Of a DNA stretch of 43,799 nt, positions 5,302 to 43,799 are shown one piece after another (position 1 is the stretch's first letter; the number at the start of each line of letters is the position of its first letter). Origin of the DNA: a virus. Under the pieces are notes generated by a model. It had not been told where the DNA came from and searched no databases. It worked only from the letters and a program-made list of their open reading frames with translations. Both the position numbers and the translations under genes were made by a program. Location: positions 1-43,799 of the IMG/VR virus record IMGVR_UViG_3300037882_002205; one strand, given 5' to 3'.

Positions 5302-5768
5302 TAGGCGTAGTCCGCAAAATGAGTAACCAAAATAAGCTGTGTAGTACTGCCATAGGTAGGTGTAGCGTTGGCTTGTAGTTGGCCGTAGATTTTTCCATTA
5401 GTAACAGGCAATAGTCTATCGACGGTATTGTAGGTACAAGCTTTAGCACCGGAAGTAGCCATCTCTACCAACGCATAGTCGGCAGCAACGAAGTTTATTT
5501 TACCCAAATATTTACCAGCAGCCACGTTAGCCGTACTGAATGTCAGGGGTGCGTTATCCGCTACCGCCATGGTCGAGTCTGTAAACAAGTGCAGGTCTAC
5601 GTCTGCGCTAACAGGAGATGCAGCATTATCTACCAAGGTCAGGTATTTTAACAGGGCTGTTTTGATACTGGATCCATCCCCGATATCAAAGGTTAATAAT
5701 CCGCCGATAGCATCTCCAGCAGCGTAGGCTCCTGCGGTAATGGTTGGGGTTTGAGCAATTACTTTCAT
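5301..5768 (-). CDS. Hypothetical tail-associated protein
   Basis: This 155-aa protein is not recognised by name. It is rich in Ala, Thr, Gly and Val with predicted beta strands, lacks TM segments, and opens with TPTITAGAYAAGDAIGG, a pattern I associate with phage structural proteins of unknown role. In composition and length it is like the capsid-associated protein at 18655-19113, though I cannot show homology. Between the fibre and SGNH genes, it is probably a virion component or fibre adaptor. The start has AGAAGGGA upstream. Confidence 0.6.
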   Translation of the reverse strand: MKVIAQTPTITAGAYAAGDAIGGLLTFDIGDGSSIKTALLKYLTLVDNAASPVSADVDLHLFTDSTMAVADNAPLTFSTANVAAGKYLGKINFVAADYALVEMATSGAKACTYNTVDRLLPVTNGKIYGQLQANATPTYGSTTQLILVTHFADYA

Positions 5769-5782
5769 GACGAATCCCTTCT

Positions 5783-6088
5783 CTATGCGATACCTAAAAT
5801 AGTTTTTACGGTATTTATAAACGTTGTTTCAGCAGCGTTGACGGGTGTGAAGCCAACAACCAAGGCTGTGGTTATTTCGTAGTCGCCTTGCTGTAACGAC
5901 ACAAGACCCTGCGTAATTAAATCATAGCGAGCCAAGCGCCGATCTAAAGGAAGTAGCAGGAAAGCTTCTCGTATCTTTTCAACTGTAGTACGACTGTCTT
6001 TAGCCGCCTCAGTAGCACGGTCCGCTGCTAAAGCAGTTACCTCCGCATCGGTCATTGTAACCTCAACGCCATTAACAACTCTAATCAT
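5783..6088 (-). CDS. Hypothetical small tail-region protein
   Basis: The 101-aa protein is predicted mostly alpha-helical with an acidic N-terminal half (AEVTALAADRATEAAKDSRT) and no TM segment. Its ATG overlaps the TAA of the tail fibre gene by one base, so it is translationally coupled to the fibre. Chaperones for fibre trimerisation are often encoded just downstream of fibre genes, and that is a reasonable guess here, but no motif proves it. Confidence 0.6.
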   Translation of the reverse strand: MIRVVNGVEVTMTDAEVTALAADRATEAAKDSRTTVEKIREAFLLLPLDRRLARYDLITQGLVSLQQGDYEITTALVVGFTPVNAAETTFINTVKTILGIA

Positions 6089-7959
6089 TAGATAAGCTTC
6101 CTTCCATACAGGGCATAAGTCATGGATATGTTACCTGACGAGGCCAAGATACGAATGCCGTTTACAGCAGAGGTAGCGCCGACGTATTGTCCTGACCCTT
6201 GGAAGGTCTCAGGTACGCCGTCAAAATCTCTACAGTAGTGACCTGTAGCGCTTATCATTTTTGGGGTCGACGCTTGGTTAGGGTTGTAAAGCCGCAGGAT
6301 TATGTGACCGCCATTTTCATTGGTGCTGTTACCGACCTTGGCGTTAGTGATACCGCCAGCAATAATTATCTTTGAATCCCCTGTTGAGCCGCCATAGTTA
6401 TCCGTATAGCCTGCACGTACCGAATACCGGTAGTCGGACGCACCCGACTTCCATGTACTACCGTTATCCAACGATACACGAGCCCAAATATCGACACTGT
6501 CTGTAGCGACAGCTATGTTATATAAATGCAGTTCTAGTACGTCGTAGCTACTATTAAAATAGGTGGCACCAGCGATATCCACGGTTGCTGCACCAGAAGG
6601 GGCACCGTACAGAAGAGGTAACCCGGTAAGCGGTCTGCGGCCTACAGTTCTGAAAATACCGGCAGCAGTAGCGGCTACCATAAATGACTCATCAGGATAA
6701 ACAGTTATGGTGGTTGAGCCATCGATGGTCTCAGAACCGTTTGGGTCCAACGTAATTACGCCGGTGCCTTTGTTTACAACCCAACAATAAAAACCAATGG
6801 CAAGCGTAGCTACTGCACTAAACGACAAGGTAAACGTACCAGTACAGTCGATAATGACGGCTCTGTCAGTGTCTAAAACGGTATAGTTGGCGCTCTTTGA
6901 AGTAAAGCCTGTAGCACCAATTAATTGGCCAGAACCTGTAATCGCTGAACCAGATAAAGTACCTACACCATTAGAAGCAGATACTGAAGTAACCGTACCC
7001 GCCCCAGCGCCATAGCCTCGTGATTGGGTTACTTTCCAGTTTGAGCCGTCACATACCAATACAATCGCTTGGTTAGCAGACAGCGCAATACTAGCGGATC
7101 CGTCTATTGTTTCAGAAGCATTAGGGTCAAGGGTTACACTGCCGGAACCGCTATTACGAACGTGGAACTCAAAACCAGTTCCTAGTGTAGCTGCTGCTGT
7201 TAAGCTGAATGTGTGGCCGCCAGAGCCGGTGTAGTCTACTAATTTGTTTCTGTCGGTAGCCAGTACTGTATAGTTGCCCGATTGCGCATTAATAGTCCGT
7301 AGGTTTACAGCAGCAGCAGATGCAGCCGCAGCAGTTGCAGATGCGCTAGCATTAGTAGCTTGGGTAGTTGCAGTAGAGGCAGACGTAGCTGCGCTTGTTG
7401 CTGAACTACTAGCGCTAGTGGCACTGGTAGCCGCTGCTGTAGCGGAAGCAGCCGCAGCAGTAACTGCTGTAGTGAAAGACGACGTAGATAAAGTAAACCC
7501 ATCCGCAGTATTATTAACTACTAAGGCATACCCTGCCACAGGAGTTATGCTGCCTATAGTTGTACTCAAAGTGGTGCTTTGGCTTACACCCACTTTAAGA
7601 CAGCGGTCTACCTCCCCTTTGAGTTGCTGCACCAATATGACAGTACGATCTAAAGCGTTTTCAATAATTTTTGCCGGTAGTTTGCCTTCAATACTGACCG
7701 ATTCCCCTTGGGTAAGGGCTAAACTGCCTTGTATGATTAATGCTTGACCATTTGTAGGCGTAGTAACAAACGTTACTCGACCCCCGGTCAGTCCGCCTTC
7801 AGTGAGAGTAACTGAATAATCTGTACTGATAGTCTTCAATACCCCATCGACGTACACCTGAATATCGGTAGTAGCATACACTCGGAATGTAAAGTCCAAG
7901 TAATTGGTCGACCCGTTACCCGTGGCTCGTACGACTCTAGCAGTATCTTGAAGTGTCAT
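6088..7959 (-). CDS. Tail fibre with T7 gp17-like N-terminal domain
   Basis: This 623-aa fibre binds the host surface. Residues 1-125 match the T7 fibre attachment domain, with FTFRVYATTDIQVYVDG and the following strands. Residues about 161-217 are almost only Ala, Ser and Thr, a low-complexity shaft often seen in phage fibres. Two homologous modules follow at about 229-310 and 358-439. Each begins NYTVLxTDR and contains TLDPNxSETIDGS, separated by a Gly/Ser-rich linker. Residues 445-623 form a unique C-terminal domain that should be the receptor-binding tip. It lies directly after the large internal virion protein, with the small gene 5783-6088 coupled downstream. Confidence 0.9.
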   Translation of the reverse strand: MTLQDTARVVRATGNGSTNYLDFTFRVYATTDIQVYVDGVLKTISTDYSVTLTEGGLTGGRVTFVTTPTNGQALIIQGSLALTQGESVSIEGKLPAKIIENALDRTVILVQQLKGEVDRCLKVGVSQSTTLSTTIGSITPVAGYALVVNNTADGFTLSTSSFTTAVTAAAASATAAATSATSASSSATSAATSASTATTQATNASASATAAAASAAAVNLRTINAQSGNYTVLATDRNKLVDYTGSGGHTFSLTAAATLGTGFEFHVRNSGSGSVTLDPNASETIDGSASIALSANQAIVLVCDGSNWKVTQSRGYGAGAGTVTSVSASNGVGTLSGSAITGSGQLIGATGFTSKSANYTVLDTDRAVIIDCTGTFTLSFSAVATLAIGFYCWVVNKGTGVITLDPNGSETIDGSTTITVYPDESFMVAATAAGIFRTVGRRPLTGLPLLYGAPSGAATVDIAGATYFNSSYDVLELHLYNIAVATDSVDIWARVSLDNGSTWKSGASDYRYSVRAGYTDNYGGSTGDSKIIIAGGITNAKVGNSTNENGGHIILRLYNPNQASTPKMISATGHYCRDFDGVPETFQGSGQYVGATSAVNGIRILASSGNISMTYALYGRKLI

Positions 7960-7961
7960 AT

Positions 7962-10900
7962 CTATTGGCCTTTAACTGGTAAGCTTGTAGCGTCAAACTG
8001 GGGCATGTTATCAAGCGAGTCTACAGGCACTGAATCCGCCGCTGCGTTTTGTAAATCGGCGTTTTCCTGTTTTAACGCATCGTTCTCTGATTCTACAACG
8101 TCTACTTGGTCCTGTAAATCACTGATAACATTGGTGCTATCTTCTTGCTGCTGCATGGGCATCTTGCCTTGCTCTATACGCTTAATCTCTTTCTCTGGGG
8201 TGTGCGCATTAGCGTACTCCCAACGGGCTTTAACAACGCTTCGTGGGTACCCACCAATAGGCGAAGCCAACAGCGCTCCATATGGGTCTTTCTGTTCTAG
8301 GGCTTCTGGTATTAACGTACTGTTCGATAGCGCATCAGGCAGACCAAAGATGTCTGCTGCTTGCAACGTTTTCAGTATTAGTTTATTACGGGCTTTATCC
8401 GTACGGTCTTGCGCTGCCGTAAAGTTGCCTGCTTCAATATCTTTTATAAGCTGCTCTCTATCGACTTCCATGTTTTGTAGATACTCATTAAACGCTATAG
8501 GGACATCCCATAGGTCGGTACCAAACTCTTTTGTAAGCAAAGACAGCCCTCTGGAAGACTGTCTCCAAGAATCCGTGCTGATACCAATCTTATCTTTAGT
8601 ACTGTCGTACTCTATTGCCATAGCCGCAGTGTTTAGTGCTTCACCAAGAATGAACCCGCCATTGAGCGCTCCTAAAACACCTGCTCGTACTAACTTCCAT
8701 GCCTCGTCTTTTATCCGGTTAGGGTCATCTTCATCTGGTGGGAATAACAACGTCACGCCACTAGCAGCCATCTGGTACAGCACTGCGGGCAGTATGTGGT
8801 ACACGAGCACCGCTTTTGCAAACTCGCCAGCCGCTTTCTTTTTGTCTTTCGATTTAAAAAACTTCACCATAGCGGCATCCGTATGAGATTTTAATTGGCG
8901 TTGCTGCCCCATGAACATACTGGCCAACTTATGCATTGCTGATCGACCTTCGTTCTGGCCTTGTTCAGAAGCATAGTTTGAGGACTGTGTAGCGATAGTT
9001 ATTGATTCTATTGCAAGCAGTCGCTGGTTTTCCGTCAGCTCTGGTTGCGTCTCTTTCAGATACTCATTAAGGGCACCGCCACCAACCAAGACGTTAAAAT
9101 TATCCTGCATAGTGTACGCACCCATCAGGAAGTTTGATACTGAGGCGCTTCGCTTAAACAGGTTTAAATCTCGTGTAGATACAGCAGCCGCTAGTTCAGC
9201 AGATTGTTTGGTTACACGAGCTTTTTGAATAGGGGAGTTAGCCAGTAGTTCTGTGCTGTTTTGTTTCAAGTTACCTAGTGCTTTTAAAGTGTACAGCGGC
9301 CATTTATGTAACGGGATGTTTACCCCATAAGTAACAATAGACCCAAAGTTCTTTGCCAACGTAGAGAAAAACTTGCCTCCCAGTTTAGCCACAACAATAC
9401 GGCCCCGCATGTGGGTGATGAGTTTGTCTGTAGGGTTGGTTTCAGTAGCTTGGTGAGTGACGGTATTAGCGGCAGCGTAGTCTAGCAACCCAAGGACTTG
9501 TGGACCGTACCGACGCTCCATAGTCAAGCGGAACTTGCCATCCCCAATAACATCGGTAACGTCTTCTCGTAAGTCCCATTTGGCCTTTTTGCTTTCCCAT
9601 TCGTCAATGTGGGCCATTTGAGTTGTATAGAAGTTAGATACCCGTAACCCTTGCTCTGAATCCGCCGTACGAGATAAGGAAGATTTAGGCAGGGCAGAAT
9701 CCATACGAATACGTTTTATCTGGCTGACGTGTGTGTCTCGGCCTTCACGCTGCTGCGGTACATACCGCTGCTCGTACACCATAGGTACGCCAGTCTTTTC
9801 TTTGTGCCAATCGTTGTTATCTTCAAAATACGCATCGTTAAACTCAAAGGTGGCATCAACGAGGGCTTTATCTGCGGGGGTTAGCTTGCCTTCTAGTTGC
9901 TCTTTTAAATCGTTGGTCCACCCAGAGGCTGCTACTGCATTAGCCGCCTTGGTGTTCATCTCAGCCGCTTTTAAATGGGCATACACCGTAAGCCACTCCG
10001 GTTTACTGTACGTCCGCTTAGTTGGCTGCCCGTTGGTATCTGTGTAGGTTAGTGTAATACGTACACCACTATCCTCTAACCCTTTGGTTACTACGTCTCT
10101 GGTATCGCCAGCGGAAGCAAGCGCCTCGTTCCAGTGGTCCACCATATCTGCGGTAGTGGCCTGCATGTTGGCTTCATAGGTGTGGATAGATTCAATCCTG
10201 TCGAGGAAGCCGTCTGGCATACCCAGCATTTCAAGAAAGTTCATCCATTGCTGGTCGCTATAAAACACCGCTTCCAACAACTGTTTTAGTTGGCCTAGTT
10301 TGCTAGGGGATCCGGTATAGGTCCAGTCTTTATTAACTGCATCTCGTGCTATAGCTCGGTTACTATCTTGGCGTGCTTTGCGCTCTAAGGCCATGGCCTC
10401 CATACGTTGCTGACCATCAATTACCAAGTTCTCTAAATCGGTTACAATACCTTCCAACTGGGGGAGGCTTGCCGTTTCTGCATTGCGAGCAAGGACCGCC
10501 ATAGCGTACTTAACAGCTTGTGCGGACGTAGGCTCTGTTTCCGTAGTCCCGTCTTGGTACGCCTGTTCTGCTTTTTCGTACTCGTTGATAGCATCATCAC
10601 GAGCTAACTCGTTTTTGTTATACAACTTAAACAGCATAAGCTTCTCTTGCACATCAGCAGGCAAAGTACCTACAGAGAACTTACCAGCACGTCGTGTCTT
10701 AGCCGCAGACAGGGCGTTGTCGATTCGCTCTTCTAGTGCTTTTTTATTATTCTTAGCTACCTTATCGGCTACCCGCTCATTTATTTTTAAGAAGGTAGAA
10801 TCCAATGTCTTAGTGCTTGTGACGTTAGTGACTTGCGCCAACAAGGCGTTTCGATCTTGCTTGGATATCGGTGCTGCGTTTATGATTTGTTTCAATAACT

Positions 10901-12821
10901 GCTGAGCAGCTTTTATTTCTGCACGAGTATCCGTACTCCCTTGGCGCACGCCTTTAGCTTCTGCCTTAGCCGCAGCAACTTCGCCTTTAACAACCGTACT
11001 ATCTAGTTTTTTCTGGAAGGCAACTTCTGCTTTAGCCAATGCTGCTTCACCTTTAGCCATAGCTTTTCGAGCCATGTCCACTACCTTAGCCAGCTTCTTC
11101 ATAGGTATCTTACCGCTCTCACCCTCGACTTGATTTCGAGTAAGCGTGCCTTGTTTAACAATCTCTAAATCGGCTTCTGCGGCCATTCGAGCTTCGGTTA
11201 TAGCCGCCAGTTTTTCATAGCCTTTAGTACTTCTACTACCTGCATTGGCTTCTTTCTCTACTTGGCGCTGTATTAAACGCTCTTCACGTTTGAGCGCACG
11301 CACATCCGCATCTAGTTGGTTCACTAAAGCAGTTTGCTCTACGGGGCTTAGTGCTTGCGCCTCTTCTAAATTAGTTCTACCAACTACTCGTCCTTCGACA
11401 ACCGCAGGAGCTGCCGTCATAGCAGTACCTGTAGTCGGCACCAACGAGGTGCCAGCGGCGGGCAATATTTCTTGACCAGTCGTAGGCACCGTCCCTTGGG
11501 CAGGCTGCATAAGTGAGTCAAGTACTTGCCCTATTGTCAAATCTCCCAAAGTAGTTTGCTCTATGGGAGTAGCGGAAGGCTGGTTTACATTGGCAGACTC
11601 GCCTTGCGCCAAGGCTGCCTGTTCTGCTGGGCTGGTCGATAGGGTAACTTCAAACACCCCAGTAGTTGGGTTTTGTGTCGCTTTTACTGTAGGCAGATTC
11701 TGGTCCGTTAAATCCGCCAAGTTCTGGCGTATGGTTTGCAGCAGCTCTACGGGATTCTTCCCATCTATGTTGAGTGCCTTGGCCGTTTGTTTACCCGCAG
11801 CACCTACCGCAACACCAGTGCCCTTAAAGCCGCCAGTGAGGAGTAGTGTGGGGAGGATACTGTCTATCATAGTAGCCGTCATACGGTCCTGTGACGTTTC
11901 TTTGGTACCATCACCCCGTACTTCCGTGGTGTACTTCTCTACCATACCAGACTCCATAAGTCCGGGGATGGCCATACCCATCTCTTCAACAAGCTGCTGC
12001 ACTACCTCTTCGCCATACTCTGGCAAGGCATCCATGAGGAACCCTTTAAGTACTGGTTTTATAGCTTCTTGAAAGGTTCTTGATTTCAATACGTCAACAG
12101 CCGCTTGTTTAGTCATGTTTTCAAACATGCCAAGCTGGATTGTTTCTACTGCCGCCTGTATTCCGCCAACAAGCGCACCCGTTACCCGTGCTGTGTTTTT
12201 AGACATGCCACGAGAGATGCCTGTTTTATACGCTGCGGCAGCATACTGCTCAGTAAAAAACTTATAGGTACCTACCGTTGTACCCAGTTTAAAACCCCCT
12301 ACAAAAAGAGGTACCCCAGCTACCAGCCCTACACCAGCGGATTCAGCCCCTAAAGCCATAGCGGGTGACTGAGCAACGGCCCCGTAAAATATCCCTGTCT
12401 TTGCGGCCTCTCCTTGCGCTGCACCAAACATCGCCAATGACGATACCGCAGAGCTAAGCCCTTTAGTAAAAAAATTAGTGGTGTACGCACTAACTGTATC
12501 TCTGTCTTTAGAAGCCATTATGTCTATGGGGTTATTTAAAAAATGCGCTTTATCCTGCTCAGCGGTAGTGTTGCTAAGCATAGCGTTCAAAGCGTCCGTA
12601 TTACTAACAACATCATTTTGCCCGACACGCCACGATGCACCAATAGCGCCAAGCGTTCCATTCATAGCCTCTGTGGCTACCTTAAACGGGTCGTTCTGGA
12701 TATTGGAAGTATCCACATACCCTGTCTCTGGGTTCGTTGCAGGAGGTGGAGTAGGCGCAGCACCTTGTCCTTCCTCGTCATCAAAAGTAGGTATGACTAA
12801 TCCTGAAGTATCGATCTCCAT
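7962..12821 (-). CDS. Large internal virion / DNA ejection protein (gp16 position)
   Basis: At 1619 aa this is the largest gene. Its place between the 516-aa internal protein and the tail fibre matches T7 gp16, which forms the ejection channel through the cell envelope. It has a disordered acidic, Pro-rich N-terminus. Ala/Gly-rich hydrophobic segments follow at roughly 140-260, with long charged helical and coiled-coil stretches in the middle. Another hydrophobic segment precedes LLFPPDEDD in the C-terminal third. Unlike T7 gp16 I see no lytic transglycosylase motif (no ESxxNP/GxxGLxQ) at either end. Its ATG overlaps the stop of the upstream gene. Assignment rests on size, order and composition. 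Confidence 0.75.
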   Translation of the reverse strand: MEIDTSGLVIPTFDDEEGQGAAPTPPPATNPETGYVDTSNIQNDPFKVATEAMNGTLGAIGASWRVGQNDVVSNTDALNAMLSNTTAEQDKAHFLNNPIDIMASKDRDTVSAYTTNFFTKGLSSAVSSLAMFGAAQGEAAKTGIFYGAVAQSPAMALGAESAGVGLVAGVPLFVGGFKLGTTVGTYKFFTEQYAAAAYKTGISRGMSKNTARVTGALVGGIQAAVETIQLGMFENMTKQAAVDVLKSRTFQEAIKPVLKGFLMDALPEYGEEVVQQLVEEMGMAIPGLMESGMVEKYTTEVRGDGTKETSQDRMTATMIDSILPTLLLTGGFKGTGVAVGAAGKQTAKALNIDGKNPVELLQTIRQNLADLTDQNLPTVKATQNPTTGVFEVTLSTSPAEQAALAQGESANVNQPSATPIEQTTLGDLTIGQVLDSLMQPAQGTVPTTGQEILPAAGTSLVPTTGTAMTAAPAVVEGRVVGRTNLEEAQALSPVEQTALVNQLDADVRALKREERLIQRQVEKEANAGSRSTKGYEKLAAITEARMAAEADLEIVKQGTLTRNQVEGESGKIPMKKLAKVVDMARKAMAKGEAALAKAEVAFQKKLDSTVVKGEVAAAKAEAKGVRQGSTDTRAEIKAAQQLLKQIINAAPISKQDRNALLAQVTNVTSTKTLDSTFLKINERVADKVAKNNKKALEERIDNALSAAKTRRAGKFSVGTLPADVQEKLMLFKLYNKNELARDDAINEYEKAEQAYQDGTTETEPTSAQAVKYAMAVLARNAETASLPQLEGIVTDLENLVIDGQQRMEAMALERKARQDSNRAIARDAVNKDWTYTGSPSKLGQLKQLLEAVFYSDQQWMNFLEMLGMPDGFLDRIESIHTYEANMQATTADMVDHWNEALASAGDTRDVVTKGLEDSGVRITLTYTDTNGQPTKRTYSKPEWLTVYAHLKAAEMNTKAANAVAASGWTNDLKEQLEGKLTPADKALVDATFEFNDAYFEDNNDWHKEKTGVPMVYEQRYVPQQREGRDTHVSQIKRIRMDSALPKSSLSRTADSEQGLRVSNFYTTQMAHIDEWESKKAKWDLREDVTDVIGDGKFRLTMERRYGPQVLGLLDYAAANTVTHQATETNPTDKLITHMRGRIVVAKLGGKFFSTLAKNFGSIVTYGVNIPLHKWPLYTLKALGNLKQNSTELLANSPIQKARVTKQSAELAAAVSTRDLNLFKRSASVSNFLMGAYTMQDNFNVLVGGGALNEYLKETQPELTENQRLLAIESITIATQSSNYASEQGQNEGRSAMHKLASMFMGQQRQLKSHTDAAMVKFFKSKDKKKAAGEFAKAVLVYHILPAVLYQMAASGVTLLFPPDEDDPNRIKDEAWKLVRAGVLGALNGGFILGEALNTAAMAIEYDSTKDKIGISTDSWRQSSRGLSLLTKEFGTDLWDVPIAFNEYLQNMEVDREQLIKDIEAGNFTAAQDRTDKARNKLILKTLQAADIFGLPDALSNSTLIPEALEQKDPYGALLASPIGGYPRSVVKARWEYANAHTPEKEIKRIEQGKMPMQQQEDSTNVISDLQDQVDVVESENDALKQENADLQNAAADSVPVDSLDNMPQFDATSLPVKGQ

Positions 12822-26262: not shown

Positions 26263-26759
26263 ATGTGGGGTTGGAAATTTTTTTATGACGTGTGTGGGTC
26301 CTTTCCGCACGCACAGGCACACGGGCGGTCCGGGACGCATAGGGGGGTCGAGGTCAAAAAGGAGCGGCACAGAGACAAAAAAAGTTTAAGGCATAAGCGA
26401 AGGTATCACCGCAAACATAGGTTGATGCCTTGAGCGGCCACACACAATCACCGTTAAGGCGGTTCAAATAGAGTCTAGGTTATGTAGTGAGGGGGCAAAA
26501 CAACACACGGTTTAAAGCGTTTACGCTGTTGAGGTATAGCATATGTATTGCGTATATAGTATAGTCCTATCGACCTACTACACGTGTAATTCGTGGTTTT
26601 CACGGTTCATATACCCAATATGTACTGACTATAGCATTACGTCATATAGCATCTGTTTTAGCGGCGTTGTTTATCTATAAAAAAATACGTATGATGTTTG
26701 TTGGGTAAAAAGATAAACCTTGAATTAGCGCCAATTTCGAGGTTTTCGACACGTTTTTT

Positions 26760-26789
26760 TTTTTTCAATCCCTATACGCGTTGAAAAAA
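26760..26789. repeat. 9-bp inverted repeat inside the origin-like region
   Basis: TTTTTTCAA (26760-26768) and TTGAAAAAA (26781-26789) are perfect complements around a 12-nt loop. A rightward promoter-like pair, TTGAAA (26781-26786), 16 nt, TACAAT (26803-26808), starts in the right arm and ends in the central palindrome. The hairpin could also act as a terminator for either direction because of its A/T arms, though it lacks a GC stem. Confidence 0.55.
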
Positions 26790-26796
26790 TATAATA

Positions 26797-26815
26797 TACT
26801 ACTACAATAGTAGTA
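26797..26815. repeat. Central palindrome TACTACTA-CAA-TAGTAGTA
   Basis: These are perfect 8-bp arms with a 3-nt centre, lying 6 bp from the geometric midpoint of the 36-bp inverted repeat. Such a symmetric AT-rich site fits a dimeric initiator or repressor operator. Confidence 0.75.
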
Positions 26816-26986
26816 GATAGAAAGAGGTTACTATATAGAATAAAATAATACTAAAACCCCTCATAACCGCTCCAATTCAATGTTTATCTTTTTACACAAC
26901 AAACGTCATGACTAGATAATCACGGTTAGCATCAACTAACATCTACACTAAACAACGTATATTTTAATCGTTTACCTAGATAACTA

Positions 26987-27015
26987 TTGACAAACACGGT
27001 AAACACTGCTATAAT
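26987..27015 (+). promoter_or_regulatory. Perfect-consensus sigma70 early promoter
   Basis: TTGACA (26987-26992), 17 nt, TATAAT (27010-27015): both hexamers and the spacer length are consensus. It lies 90 bp before the first rightward gene (27106). A strong host-type promoter here fits immediate-early transcription by host RNA polymerase, and no phage RNA polymerase gene was found. Its spacer contains one copy of a 16-nt repeat that recurs downstream. Confidence 0.85.
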
Positions 27016-27084
27016 AATTACAAGAAGAACAAAACAAATCGCTTCTCCTCTTTTTTCTCTCTACAAATACAAACACGGTAAACA
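26990..27084. repeat. Two 16-nt repeats, one inside the early promoter: candidate operator
   Basis: ACAAACACGGTAAACA occurs exactly at 26990-27005, from the end of the -35 box through the spacer, and again at 27069-27084 in the leader of the first early gene. The starts are 79 bp apart. A protein bound at both could block or loop the promoter. Small RHH and XRE proteins encoded downstream are candidate ligands. Confidence 0.7.
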
Positions 27085-27105
27085 ACTGAAAAGGATATAG
27101 TCACC

Positions 27106-30587: not shown

Positions 30588-31019
30588 ATGGCCATTTATT
30601 TAATCGACGAGTACATTATGGATGAGCTAACCGCAGGCAACTACTTGTTAGAGGTAGTGGTATCTGATGGCGGTGATTACTATGCTAACCTAATCCATTC
30701 CTGCCCCTCTGATAACGATGCGGTGGGCTTACTAAACGGCGCAATTACTAAACTTAAACAACAATGCGACACCATAGAGGACAACCAACCACAAACACAC
30801 GAAAATACCCAAAAGGATAGTTTTGTAGAGATCCTAAGCCAGCTCTTTGGTCAATCAAGAGGGGTTGCACCTTCAGGGCTGGTATCTTTTTCCGATGGGG
30901 AAGCGATTGTTGGTAAGAACCTATTAGACATTGCCCGTCAAAAGGCACAGCGCATCTTTGATAAGCCCGATGCTATCAAGTTCACCCCTATACCCCCGAA
31001 TCGTCATGGGGTGTATTAA
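30588..31019 (+). CDS. Early protein of unknown function
   Basis: The 143-aa protein has an acidic N-terminal half (MAIYLIDEYIMDELTAG) and a Gln/Asn-rich linker around 60-78. A C-terminal domain with DIARQKAQRIFDKP follows. GAAAGGAG is a strong RBS. No TM or recognised motif is present. It is the first gene after the weak promoter candidate at 30533-30561. Confidence 0.65.
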   Translation: MAIYLIDEYIMDELTAGNYLLEVVVSDGGDYYANLIHSCPSDNDAVGLLNGAITKLKQQCDTIEDNQPQTHENTQKDSFVEILSQLFGQSRGVAPSGLVSFSDGEAIVGKNLLDIARQKAQRIFDKPDAIKFTPIPPNRHGVY

Positions 31020-32618: not shown

Positions 32619-33059
32619 ATGAGCCTTATGAAAGTAGTTATTAATAGCAATTACGGTGGCTTTGGTCTGTCTAAAGAAGGCTGCCAAAGATATTGGGATA
32701 TAAAAGGCCAACAAGTTTGGATTGAAGACCATGAAAAGTACGCCGCCGTAGGATTGTTTACTGTGTGGTTATTACCGCCAGAGGAACGTATGGACACTAG
32801 CGGTGGAGATTTATTCTACACCCTAAGCAAGGAAGAACGTGCCGCATACAATAAAAAATATGACGAGCAGACTTGGTACGAGCGAAACGTTGACCGTAAG
32901 GACCCTATTCTTGTGCAAGTTGTTGAAGAACTTGGGCAAGCTGCTGCTGGACAACACGCCACACTAAAGGTTGTTGAGATTCCCGATGATATCAAATGGA
33001 TTATTGACGAGTACGACGGTCGGGAAACGATAGAAGAAGTGCATAGAACATGGTCTTAG
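32619..33059 (+). CDS. Conserved phage protein, NYGGFGLS family, unknown function
   Basis: The 146-aa protein matches a conserved group of phage early proteins by its start (KVVINSNYGGFGLS) and end (KWIIDEYDGRETIEEVHRTW), with DPILVQVVEELGQAAAG between. Function is not known. AAGGAATAAG gives the RBS. Downstream lies the 154-bp gap with the structured RNA. Confidence 0.75.
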   Translation: MSLMKVVINSNYGGFGLSKEGCQRYWDIKGQQVWIEDHEKYAAVGLFTVWLLPPEERMDTSGGDLFYTLSKEERAAYNKKYDEQTWYERNVDRKDPILVQVVEELGQAAAGQHATLKVVEIPDDIKWIIDEYDGRETIEEVHRTWS

Positions 33060-33064
33060 AACTC

Positions 33065-33192
33065 CCCAGTAGCGGCGTGGACAGTGACACGCCACATGAC
33101 GATTCCTCCGTGTAGTGTTTGTGGAGTTCTCGGCTGAGGAAGTGCGAGAAGTGCTCTGTGAAGTTTAGCCGGTGCAATTCCGGCCTACTGGG
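33065..33192 (+). ncRNA. Candidate structured RNA with tRNA T-arm-like 3' end
   Basis: The 154-bp gap 33060-33213 has no gene. An 8-bp stem (33065-33072 with 33185-33192) encloses:
- a 6-bp hairpin (33074-33079/33088-33093, 8-nt loop);
- a 4-bp hairpin (33106-33109/33123-33126);
- a 6-bp hairpin (33127-33132/33145-33150);
- a 5-bp stem with 7-nt loop TGCAATT (33168-33184) that directly abuts the closing stem.
The last feature copies the T-arm/acceptor join of tRNA, but the 128-nt length and the missing D and anticodon arms exclude a normal tRNA. TTCCTC (33103) and GAGGAA (33136) could pair as a pseudoknot. It ends 6 nt before the leader element of the next gene, so it may instead be a cis-acting leader. 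Confidence 0.55.
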
Positions 33193-33213
33193 TTTATTTA
33201 GAAAGAGATACTG

Positions 33214-34011
33214 ATGAGTAATTTAGATAATGACTTTGTACAAAGGATAGAAGTTAGTTTTAACGGCGGCGGGTTTGACATCTTTTATGCTAGGAGTGAT
33301 ATGTCAAACCCTTCAGCAACGCAAAAATGGCTAGGGCCCGTTTATCGTGAAGGTGAGACGGTGGCATCTAACATAGTTCTGTCAAACGTTACAGTCATAT
33401 CATTTCAAGACATAAAGAAAGAGATACCAATGACCAATAATAAATACCCACTAACCGTACAGGAAGCCCGTGCAGCGCTGGTTAATGAGCCCGTAGGGAC
33501 GATCGTTGAAAGCGAAGACTATAAAGACGGAGGTAACTTTTTTGCAGGACAATGGCGATTCTGTAACTTAAACCTACTACTGCTTGAGCAAAGGCGCTGG
33601 AGCAGACAACAGGATAAGTTTCATGACTGGTTTCCAACCAGCACATACAACAACAGGTACCTTCCGGTAGAACCTAAAGGGTATCGCATCATCGCCTTAG
33701 ACTCACCAGCTCACCCCGACTACGTGTCACCACAGCCAACGGTTAAGATGTTGACTGCGGATGAGGCGCTGGCGTTGGAGGAGTTTTGCGTCGTCGCTAA
33801 AATCTTTTCGCACCCTGAGATTACAATGGCGAATAATTTATCTGTAATGAACGAGGGATATACACTACGCCGTAAATATTGCCAATTAAACCACCTACCC
33901 CCTAGTTTTAATGTAGTGGATAGCATTGTTGCTCACTTGGCTATGGTTAATAAGTGGCCTATTGTGGCTACTGAAGCCGAGGCGTTGCAGTTGATTAAGG
34001 AGGGTAAGTAG
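33214..34011 (+). CDS. Early protein of unknown function downstream of the structured RNA
   Basis: The 265-aa protein is preceded by TAGAAAG (33199-33205). An in-frame ATG inside the reading frame (33430, MTNNKYPLTVQEARAAL) has a good AAAGAGA site and could be the start of a shorter product of 193 aa. The middle contains many aromatic residues (FFAGQWRFCNLNL). No family is recognised. The last codons double as the RBS of the next gene. Confidence 0.65.
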   Translation: MSNLDNDFVQRIEVSFNGGGFDIFYARSDMSNPSATQKWLGPVYREGETVASNIVLSNVTVISFQDIKKEIPMTNNKYPLTVQEARAALVNEPVGTIVESEDYKDGGNFFAGQWRFCNLNLLLLEQRRWSRQQDKFHDWFPTSTYNNRYLPVEPKGYRIIALDSPAHPDYVSPQPTVKMLTADEALALEEFCVVAKIFSHPEITMANNLSVMNEGYTLRRKYCQLNHLPPSFNVVDSIVAHLAMVNKWPIVATEAEALQLIKEGK

Positions 34012-43640: not shown

Positions 43641-43799
43641 ATGACCAAAATCCGAGCTGCTTATCTGAAATCCCAGAAGGAGGTCGAATTACCGACCCCT
43701 CCTGTGGTTGAAGAAACCCCTGTGGTTGAAGAAACCCCTGTGGTTGAAGAAACCCCTGTGGTTGAAGAAACCCCTGTGGTTGAAGAAACCCCTGTTAAA
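43641..43799 (+). CDS. VVEETP-repeat protein, 5' part (continues at 1-114)
   Basis: ATG 43641 is preceded by TAGAAAGGAAA, the recurring leader element of this genome. It encodes MTKIRAAYLKSQKEVELPTP, followed by PVVEET repeats that run off the window. Joined through the 99-bp overlap it ends at base 114, giving 57 aa. The repeats are acidic and the tail is basic. The gene is placed between ssDNA-binding protein and polymerase; its role is unknown. Confidence 0.75.
   Translation, partial: MTKIRAAYLKSQKEVELPTPPVVEETPVVEETPVVEETPVVEETPVVEETPVK
43701..43799. repeat. 99-bp terminal direct repeat, right copy
   Basis: Identical to bases 1-99, and made of five 18-bp coding units plus nine bases. 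Joining the two copies restores one open gene, so the molecule is circular or circularly permuted. Confidence 0.95.

Follow-up and report, generated by a model that had tools for sequence, protein, structure and literature searches.

A family of phage RNAs with a covarying tRNA-like frame and a hypervariable insert where tRNA has its anticodon arm

The 43.8-kb virus record IMGVR_UViG_3300037882_002205 (hereafter the window, searched over its whole length) carries, between two genes, an element of 128 nucleotides (nt) at positions 33065-33192 of the + strand, which we place in a large and previously uncatalogued family of at least 123 phage RNAs. Judged from the alignment of its members, the family is a covarying RNA with a shared anatomy: a closing stem of 7-8 base pairs (bp), a C-G linker, a 5-bp hairpin with the loop GACAGYGA, an insert of 29-207 nt, an A, and a hairpin of 5 bp and 7 nt resembling the T-arm of transfer RNA (tRNA). 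Its members are probably discrete non-coding RNAs built on a tRNA frame, in which a variable folded insert has replaced the anticodon arm, and which are matured by tRNA enzymes and act in trans. An earlier, sequence-only reading of the window described the sequence as we find it and offered two interpretations, a tRNA mimic binding host translation or processing factors and a new cis-regulatory RNA. This interpretation is partly supported: for the family, the first half is borne out by the T-arm/acceptor join, the linker with its D-arm-like hairpin, the constraints on the T-loop, the same-strand tandems with tRNA genes and the CCA ends of a subset.

Retrieval and extent of the family

The window element matches no Rfam family at the gathering threshold and is passed over by ARAGORN and by the tRNA model RF00005, whereas the tRNAs beside its relatives are found; it thus matches no known riboswitch or tRNA family, an outcome on which the sequence-only reading depended. 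The only Rfam match in the window, to the folP riboswitch, is at chance level and on the opposite strand, which leaves that candidate without support. No relative was found by blastn of the element against phage and plasmid collections, by covariance-model searches of loci reached through neighbouring proteins, or by an exact pattern in which the closing stem was that of the window; likewise, queries with the portal, DUF2800 and 265-amino-acid (aa) proteins led to no relatives of the RNA.

Relatives came from patterns scanned in IMG/VR. One that keeps the T-loop and its closing pairs, with the rest free, led to locus L027, in which the D-arm-like hairpin shows a compensatory change from G-C to U-A and the closing stem has changed bases that mostly still pair. 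A second scan joined the loops GACAGYGA and GGTGCAATTCC, with the middle free, and gave 117 stretches, most with the full anatomy. The query of a third scan was the D-arm-like hairpin only (H1), with no T-arm, and the closing stem and T-arm were recovered in 83 of 97 cases, a few of them loose fits; this independent check indicates that T-arm and acceptor accompany the D-arm-like hairpin. The T-arms so recovered have U54, A58 and a purine at 57, and they include the canonical loops TTCGACT and TTCAATT.

Among the first 80 loci, model R1, made from the window sequence alone, had 70 matches at E<=1, of which nearly all coincide with places found by the patterns. Its detection of relatives at E values down to 8.6e-11 is independent evidence for the membership of the window element. 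Against model R2, among whose 54 rows it is itself counted, the element scores 67 bits (E 5.7e-18). The IMG/VR searches by pattern and by covariance model, which covered a few strict DNA patterns, together give at least 123 distinct members on 116 phage contigs, which span 29-64% in G+C content and reach 225 kb. A consensus query did not find the family in INPHARED (50,697 deposited phages) or PLSDB, and a host search of 795 sampled genomes of Pseudomonadota and Bacteroidota gave a single match, inside coding DNA. Literature searches turned up no account of such a family in the papers covered, though this does not prove that there is none.

Some retrieved loci stand apart. The R1 match in L013 was rejected, lying inside a coding gene. 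In bacterial genomes, the stem-forming matches of the pattern TTTAGNNGGTGCAATTCCNNC belong mainly to two coding families, as judged from their reading frames; in viruses, this pattern returned the relative L027; L021, L022, L028 and L031, which have the stem and T-arm without the D-arm-like hairpin, are candidate members. L150 holds several divergent, shorter family matches at about 5331-11713 (- strand), two of them adjacent (9634-9706 and 9556-9625).

A covarying frame of three helices

The 8-bp closing stem and the 5-bp, 7-nt last hairpin that meets it without a linker are present as the sequence-only reading had them, with the stem core now refined to the inner 7 bp, which are 98-100% paired in relatives, while the outermost pair is looser (88%). 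The window copy has the whole family anatomy: the two strands of the closing stem enclose the C-G linker, GCGTG-GACAGYGA-CACGC, an insert ending in A and the T-arm (Table 1). Its D-arm-like hairpin reads GGCGTG-GACAGTGA-CACGCC, one pair beyond the 5-bp core.

Table 1. Parts of the RNA element and flanking features in the window
Feature	Position	Strand	Remark
Closing (acceptor-like) stem, 5' strand, CCCAGTAG	33065..33072	+	pairs with 33185-33192, probability 0.81-1.0
Two-nt linker C-G, in the place of tRNA positions 8-9	33073..33074	+	C in 122/123 members, G in 110/123
D-arm-like hairpin GCGTG-GACAGTGA-CACGC	33075..33092	+	5/5 pairs covary
Hypervariable insert replacing the anticodon arm; final near-invariant A adjoins the T-arm	33093..33167	+	
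T-arm-like hairpin GCCGG-TGCAATT-CCGGC, joined to the closing stem without a linker	33168..33184	+	3/3 variable pairs covary
Closing stem, 3' strand, CTACTGGG	33185..33192	+	partner of 33065-33072
TTTATTT 3' of the stem (GTTTATTT including the last stem base)	33193..33199	+	
Upstream gene, 146 aa, phrog_16527, unknown function	32619..33059	+	context
Downstream orphan gene, 265 aa	33214..34011	+	context, not thought to be the target of the RNA

The closing stem, the GGCGTG hairpin and the T-arm hairpin all appear in the minimum-energy fold of the window element. Pair probabilities are about 0.95-1.0 in the closing stem and first hairpin, apart from 0.81 at the innermost pair of the closing stem, and 0.56 in the T-arm hairpin. 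The first and last of the four inner hairpins originally described thus stand, while the two middle ones, and with them the predicted fold of this insert, are uncertain. Thermodynamics alone would lend the element weak support: the folding-energy z-score is -2.1 for the element, a value undercut by about 8% of 130-nt windows in the same arm, and the gap as a whole has -1.4. Judged from shuffled copies of the window, chance would produce an 8-bp stem abutted by a hairpin of 5 bp and a 7-nt loop 0.14 times per strand, and the same geometry with a second hairpin at most 2 nt from the 5' strand 0.01 times. The description of the stretch as gene-free also holds, the 154-nt gap being non-coding as a whole (best frame -3.8, versus +5.6 +/- 2.4 for real genes).

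The decisive evidence comes from an alignment of 54 diverse members, in which double-sided changes are seen at 8/8 closing-stem pairs, 5/5 hairpin pairs and 3/3 variable T-arm pairs. In other words, 16 of the 18 pairs vary, each of them on both sides, and the two invariant ones are the G-C pairs beside the T-loop, which were fixed by the search pattern. Among these members, which had been picked for closing-stem pairing, 98.0% of paired cells are complementary and the covariation score is 0.842, against 34-42% and 0.06-0.12, respectively, when the strands are slid by 1-3 columns. In a set taken without any structural filter, the closing stem pairs in 85% versus 50% when shuffled, and if 3' strands are swapped between members, the fraction with at least 7 of 8 pairs falls from 0.98 to 0.16. 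Cells with G-U (55) outnumber those with A-C (11), and the RNA is therefore read from this strand. The sequence-only reading had staked itself on covariation of the closing stem and the T-arm-like hairpin among homologues, and both covary. Since all variable pairs in the three helices find support in the 54 members, the reality of the structure in the window is settled, and we regard the structured RNA at this position as confirmed.

Besides the linker C, the fixed points of the family include the A before the T-arm (121/123 members) and most of the T-loop. The combination of T54, C56 and A58 with G at position 55, first noticed in the window, is family-wide: U54, R57, A58 and U60 are present in 123/123 members, C56 in 119/123 and G55 in 120/123. 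The loop GACAGYGA is found in 116/123 members, a figure partly fixed by the search patterns. The D and anticodon arms had both been reported as absent. This is correct for the anticodon arm, but in the place of the D-arm, after the 2-nt linker, stands a 5-bp hairpin, albeit with a sequence that is not that of a D-arm. An “elbow” pairing between the two loops, of the type Y.G55 and G-C56, was considered and rejected, as the partner loop is unchanged where position 55 is U.

Association with tRNA genes, inserts and probable role

ARAGORN places a tRNA within 12 nt of 8 members (0.13 expected) and within 500 nt of 22 (5.0 expected), in all 22 cases on the same strand. Locus L188 has the order RNA, RNA, tRNA-Asn with spacers of 9-11 nt, and L159 the order RNA, tRNA-Gln, RNA; arrays such as these have TTTAT spacers. 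TTTA[TC] lies directly upstream of 29/122 members, in 11 of them with CCA just before the spacer, and such spacers are also frequent beside the unit in relatives of the window element, which is itself followed by TTTATTT. A CCA is encoded after the acceptor stem in 20/123 members, beginning at offset +1 in 8 and +2 in 12; each of the six offsets beyond has it in 0-3. As far as can be read from sequence, the CCA ends and the TTTA[TC] spacing are typical of a tRNA-type 3' end and of the spacing in tRNA operons. Members often stand in series with genuine tRNA genes, and this suggests that phages exploit the tRNA shape for making or delivering small RNAs.

The same arrays hold further units of other sequence, with 7-bp closing stems followed by N-CCA, at L261 7475-7598 (+), L193 6465-6582 (-) and L175 2648-2765 (+), between family copies in L237 and upstream of a copy in L223. 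The L261 unit has the T-arm-like hairpin GCGGG-TGAAATT-CCCGT and lies 6 nt from a family member. These units look like sister families.

The acceptor/T-arm order, the CCA of a subset and the setting in tRNA arrays might also be expected of decayed or intron-bearing tRNA genes. This origin is very improbable, as GACAGYGA and G55 recur among members whose inserts and stems are unrelated, and pairing is near perfect at 98%, all of which decay would erase; moreover, neither ARAGORN nor the Rfam tRNA model recognises the members.

The inserts present a different picture from the frame, 74 of 90 resembling no other insert. Yet they fold better than shuffled versions (mean z -0.69 +/- 0.12), contain CGAAAG in 11 cases versus 2.2 expected and are enriched in a helix ending at the T-arm. 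Two recurrent insert types appear on several contigs with different closing stems, and these keep compensatory changes and near-invariant single strands. The folding, the enriched motif and the compensatory changes of the recurrent types indicate that the inserts are under selection. This argues for a constant frame that would carry exchangeable domains rather than one ligand-binding core. It also bears on the proposal that the frame is a processing or stability module only, a cut site freeing the ends of mRNAs or tRNAs, with the insert as drifting filler: the hypervariability of the inserts, the close spacing to tRNAs and the TTTAT spacers, which resemble tRNA operon processing, would fit it, but better-than-shuffled folding, the two enrichments and the conservation within recurrent types would not, and we consider it quite unlikely.

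One insert type, seen with different closing stems in L157, L172, L193, L250 and L272, has the near-invariant sequence GGAAGCAAC.TAGCTGAGCCTTCTCCCCAGTGGAT.CC ... GTTCAGCAAAACTGGA and could form a pseudoknot. The inserts of L153, L148, L154 and L158 hold a tRNA-like T-arm (GGTTCRANTCC or near), which in L153 is enclosed by a 7-bp stem, so that one tRNA-like unit is nested in another.

The third alternative is a cis-acting leader of the downstream gene (a riboswitch, thermosensor or element of translation control), in the window that of the 265-aa gene. There, 21 nt separate the end of the stem from the start codon, and several relatives lie 10-35 nt upstream of one. However, the genes downstream of relatives are unrelated to each other (terminase, lipoprotein-like, single-stranded DNA-binding protein), several copies are followed by a tRNA or another copy, and others lie in long non-coding arrays, the median distance between the open reading frames (ORFs) flanking relatives being 650 nt. 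A riboswitch, furthermore, keeps its ligand core constant, the reverse of a constant frame with a hypervariable insert, and no relative of the 265-aa gene was found. Because the downstream genes are unrelated, cis-regulation of the 265-aa gene, the second of the two interpretations first offered, is not supported, and a leader function in general is unlikely.

The probable reading is that of a trans-acting RNA on a tRNA frame, made up of an acceptor stem, a 2-nt linker, a D-arm-like hairpin and, stacked on the acceptor, a T-arm. By analogy with tRNA biology, its transcription would be that of an early operon or a tRNA array, and it would be cut at its 5' end by host RNase P and finished at its 3' end by RNase E/Z-type trimming and CCA handling. 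Acting in trans, it would have its conserved frame recognised as tRNA, be it for processing, for protection or by a tRNA-binding factor, and the fast-evolving insert would be the working part, for example by inhibiting, or serving as a decoy for, a host factor of translation, RNA processing or defence. The step to a decoy is a guess, and a doubtful one.

Several observations weigh against this proposal. ARAGORN finds no tRNA gene in the window, and the window copy lacks an encoded CCA and fills a 154-nt gap inside an operon; the array logic is in its case therefore taken over from relatives. A tRNA can be recognised within 500 nt of only about 18% of members, and the fetched stretch of many carriers shows none. 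The prevailing G55 replaces the U of tRNA and the D-loop-like sequence is not a D-loop, so that a true tRNA elbow is only putative. Finally, most loci were retrieved, and members also found, with patterns containing both loops, so that loop conservation is partly by construction, although the H1 scan, free of T-arm bias, points the same way for the T-loop.

Known RNAs and genomic setting

The closest likeness is to RNAC and RNAD of phage T4 (species 1 and 2; rnaC/rnaD, AF158101), small stable RNAs of 119-139 nt that adjoin tRNA genes, standing beside tRNA-Arg in the T4 cluster. The 3' T-arm-like hairpin of rnaC, CCGGG-TTCGAAT-CCCGG, runs straight into the next strand, and rnaD ends in CCA. Their function is still given as unknown (PMC9697503). 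In contrast to the family, they lack the GACAGYGA hairpin, have a canonical TTC T-loop and belong to T4-type phages, and neither R1 nor R2 matches the T4 tRNA region. A small non-tRNA unit within a phage tRNA cluster, as in T4, is seen in a subset of relatives and not in the window copy. By this comparison, RNAC and RNAD may work like the family without being members of it.

In transfer-messenger RNA (tmRNA), too, the ends resemble tRNA and a large insert takes the place of the anticodon arm. The family is far shorter and has no tag ORF, the gap being non-coding, and ARAGORN finds no tmRNA in the window. With tRNA itself (RF00005) the family has in common the 7-8 bp acceptor, the 2-nt linker, a hairpin in the D-arm place and the abutting T-arm of 5 bp and 7 nt, as well as CCA and tRNA co-location in a subset; it differs in having a 29-207 nt insert instead of the anticodon arm, G55 and the D-loop-like GACAGYGA. 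A hairpin loop similar to that of the family occurs in what we take to be the L5-type hairpin of the cobalamin riboswitch (CCGGUGnAAUUCCGG), but the rest of that riboswitch is absent, RF00174 gives no match at E<=10 and no Rfam family reaches its gathering threshold, so that an origin as a cobalamin-riboswitch fragment has next to no probability. GOLLD and ROOL are non-coding RNAs of phages and prophages, often near tRNA islands, with unknown function (PMC12286853); they share only this setting with the family, being several hundred nt long and of different structure, and their Rfam models match neither the window nor the relatives.

Stable non-tRNA RNAs beside the tRNA genes of T4 have long been known, and a covarying family of at least 123 members makes such RNAs alignable, open to modelling and testable. 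The present case, missed by both Rfam and ARAGORN, suggests that tRNA-shaped RNAs overlooked by current annotation lie in some of the gaps of phage tRNA arrays. We tentatively entertain the wider possibility of a new class of phage regulatory RNA, in which an anticodon-less tRNA scaffold with interchangeable inserts, matured by the host, presents decoys or inhibitors, with several sister families in the arrays and with T4 RNAC/RNAD as an old instance.

In the window, the RNA sits in a run of small genes on the same strand. Relatives of the 146-aa gene upstream have no copy of the RNA beside them in IMG/VR, and for the 265-aa gene downstream no relative was found. Coding interpretations of the gap, namely short ORFs (ATG 33050, GTG 33112) and a zinc-finger-like sequence that would require a frameshift, were rejected, as they have no homologue and no clear Shine-Dalgarno sequence and the whole-gap coding score is negative. 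A 23-nt near-duplicate comprising a ribosome-binding site and start (AGAAAGAGATACYRATG) is found at 33200-33222 and 33416-33438; since the second copy is internal to the 265-aa ORF and in its frame, this ORF may represent two fused genes or have two starts.

Elsewhere in the window, an AT-rich gap of 672 nt between two gene arms (26434-27105) contains a 41-nt inverted repeat of 88% identity (26691-26731/26869-26909), has a minimum-free-energy z of -3.4 and is a possible origin or divergent control region. An 18-nt tandem repeat (CCTGTGGTTGAAGAAACC) occupies 43683-43795, up to the end of the record. The ORF at 30588-31019 is flanked by 24-nt inverted repeats (88%; 30411-30434/31017-31040) in the manner of a mobile cassette, and the protein encoded at 36603-37184 matches Lar-like restriction alleviation proteins (phrog_599, E 6e-7).
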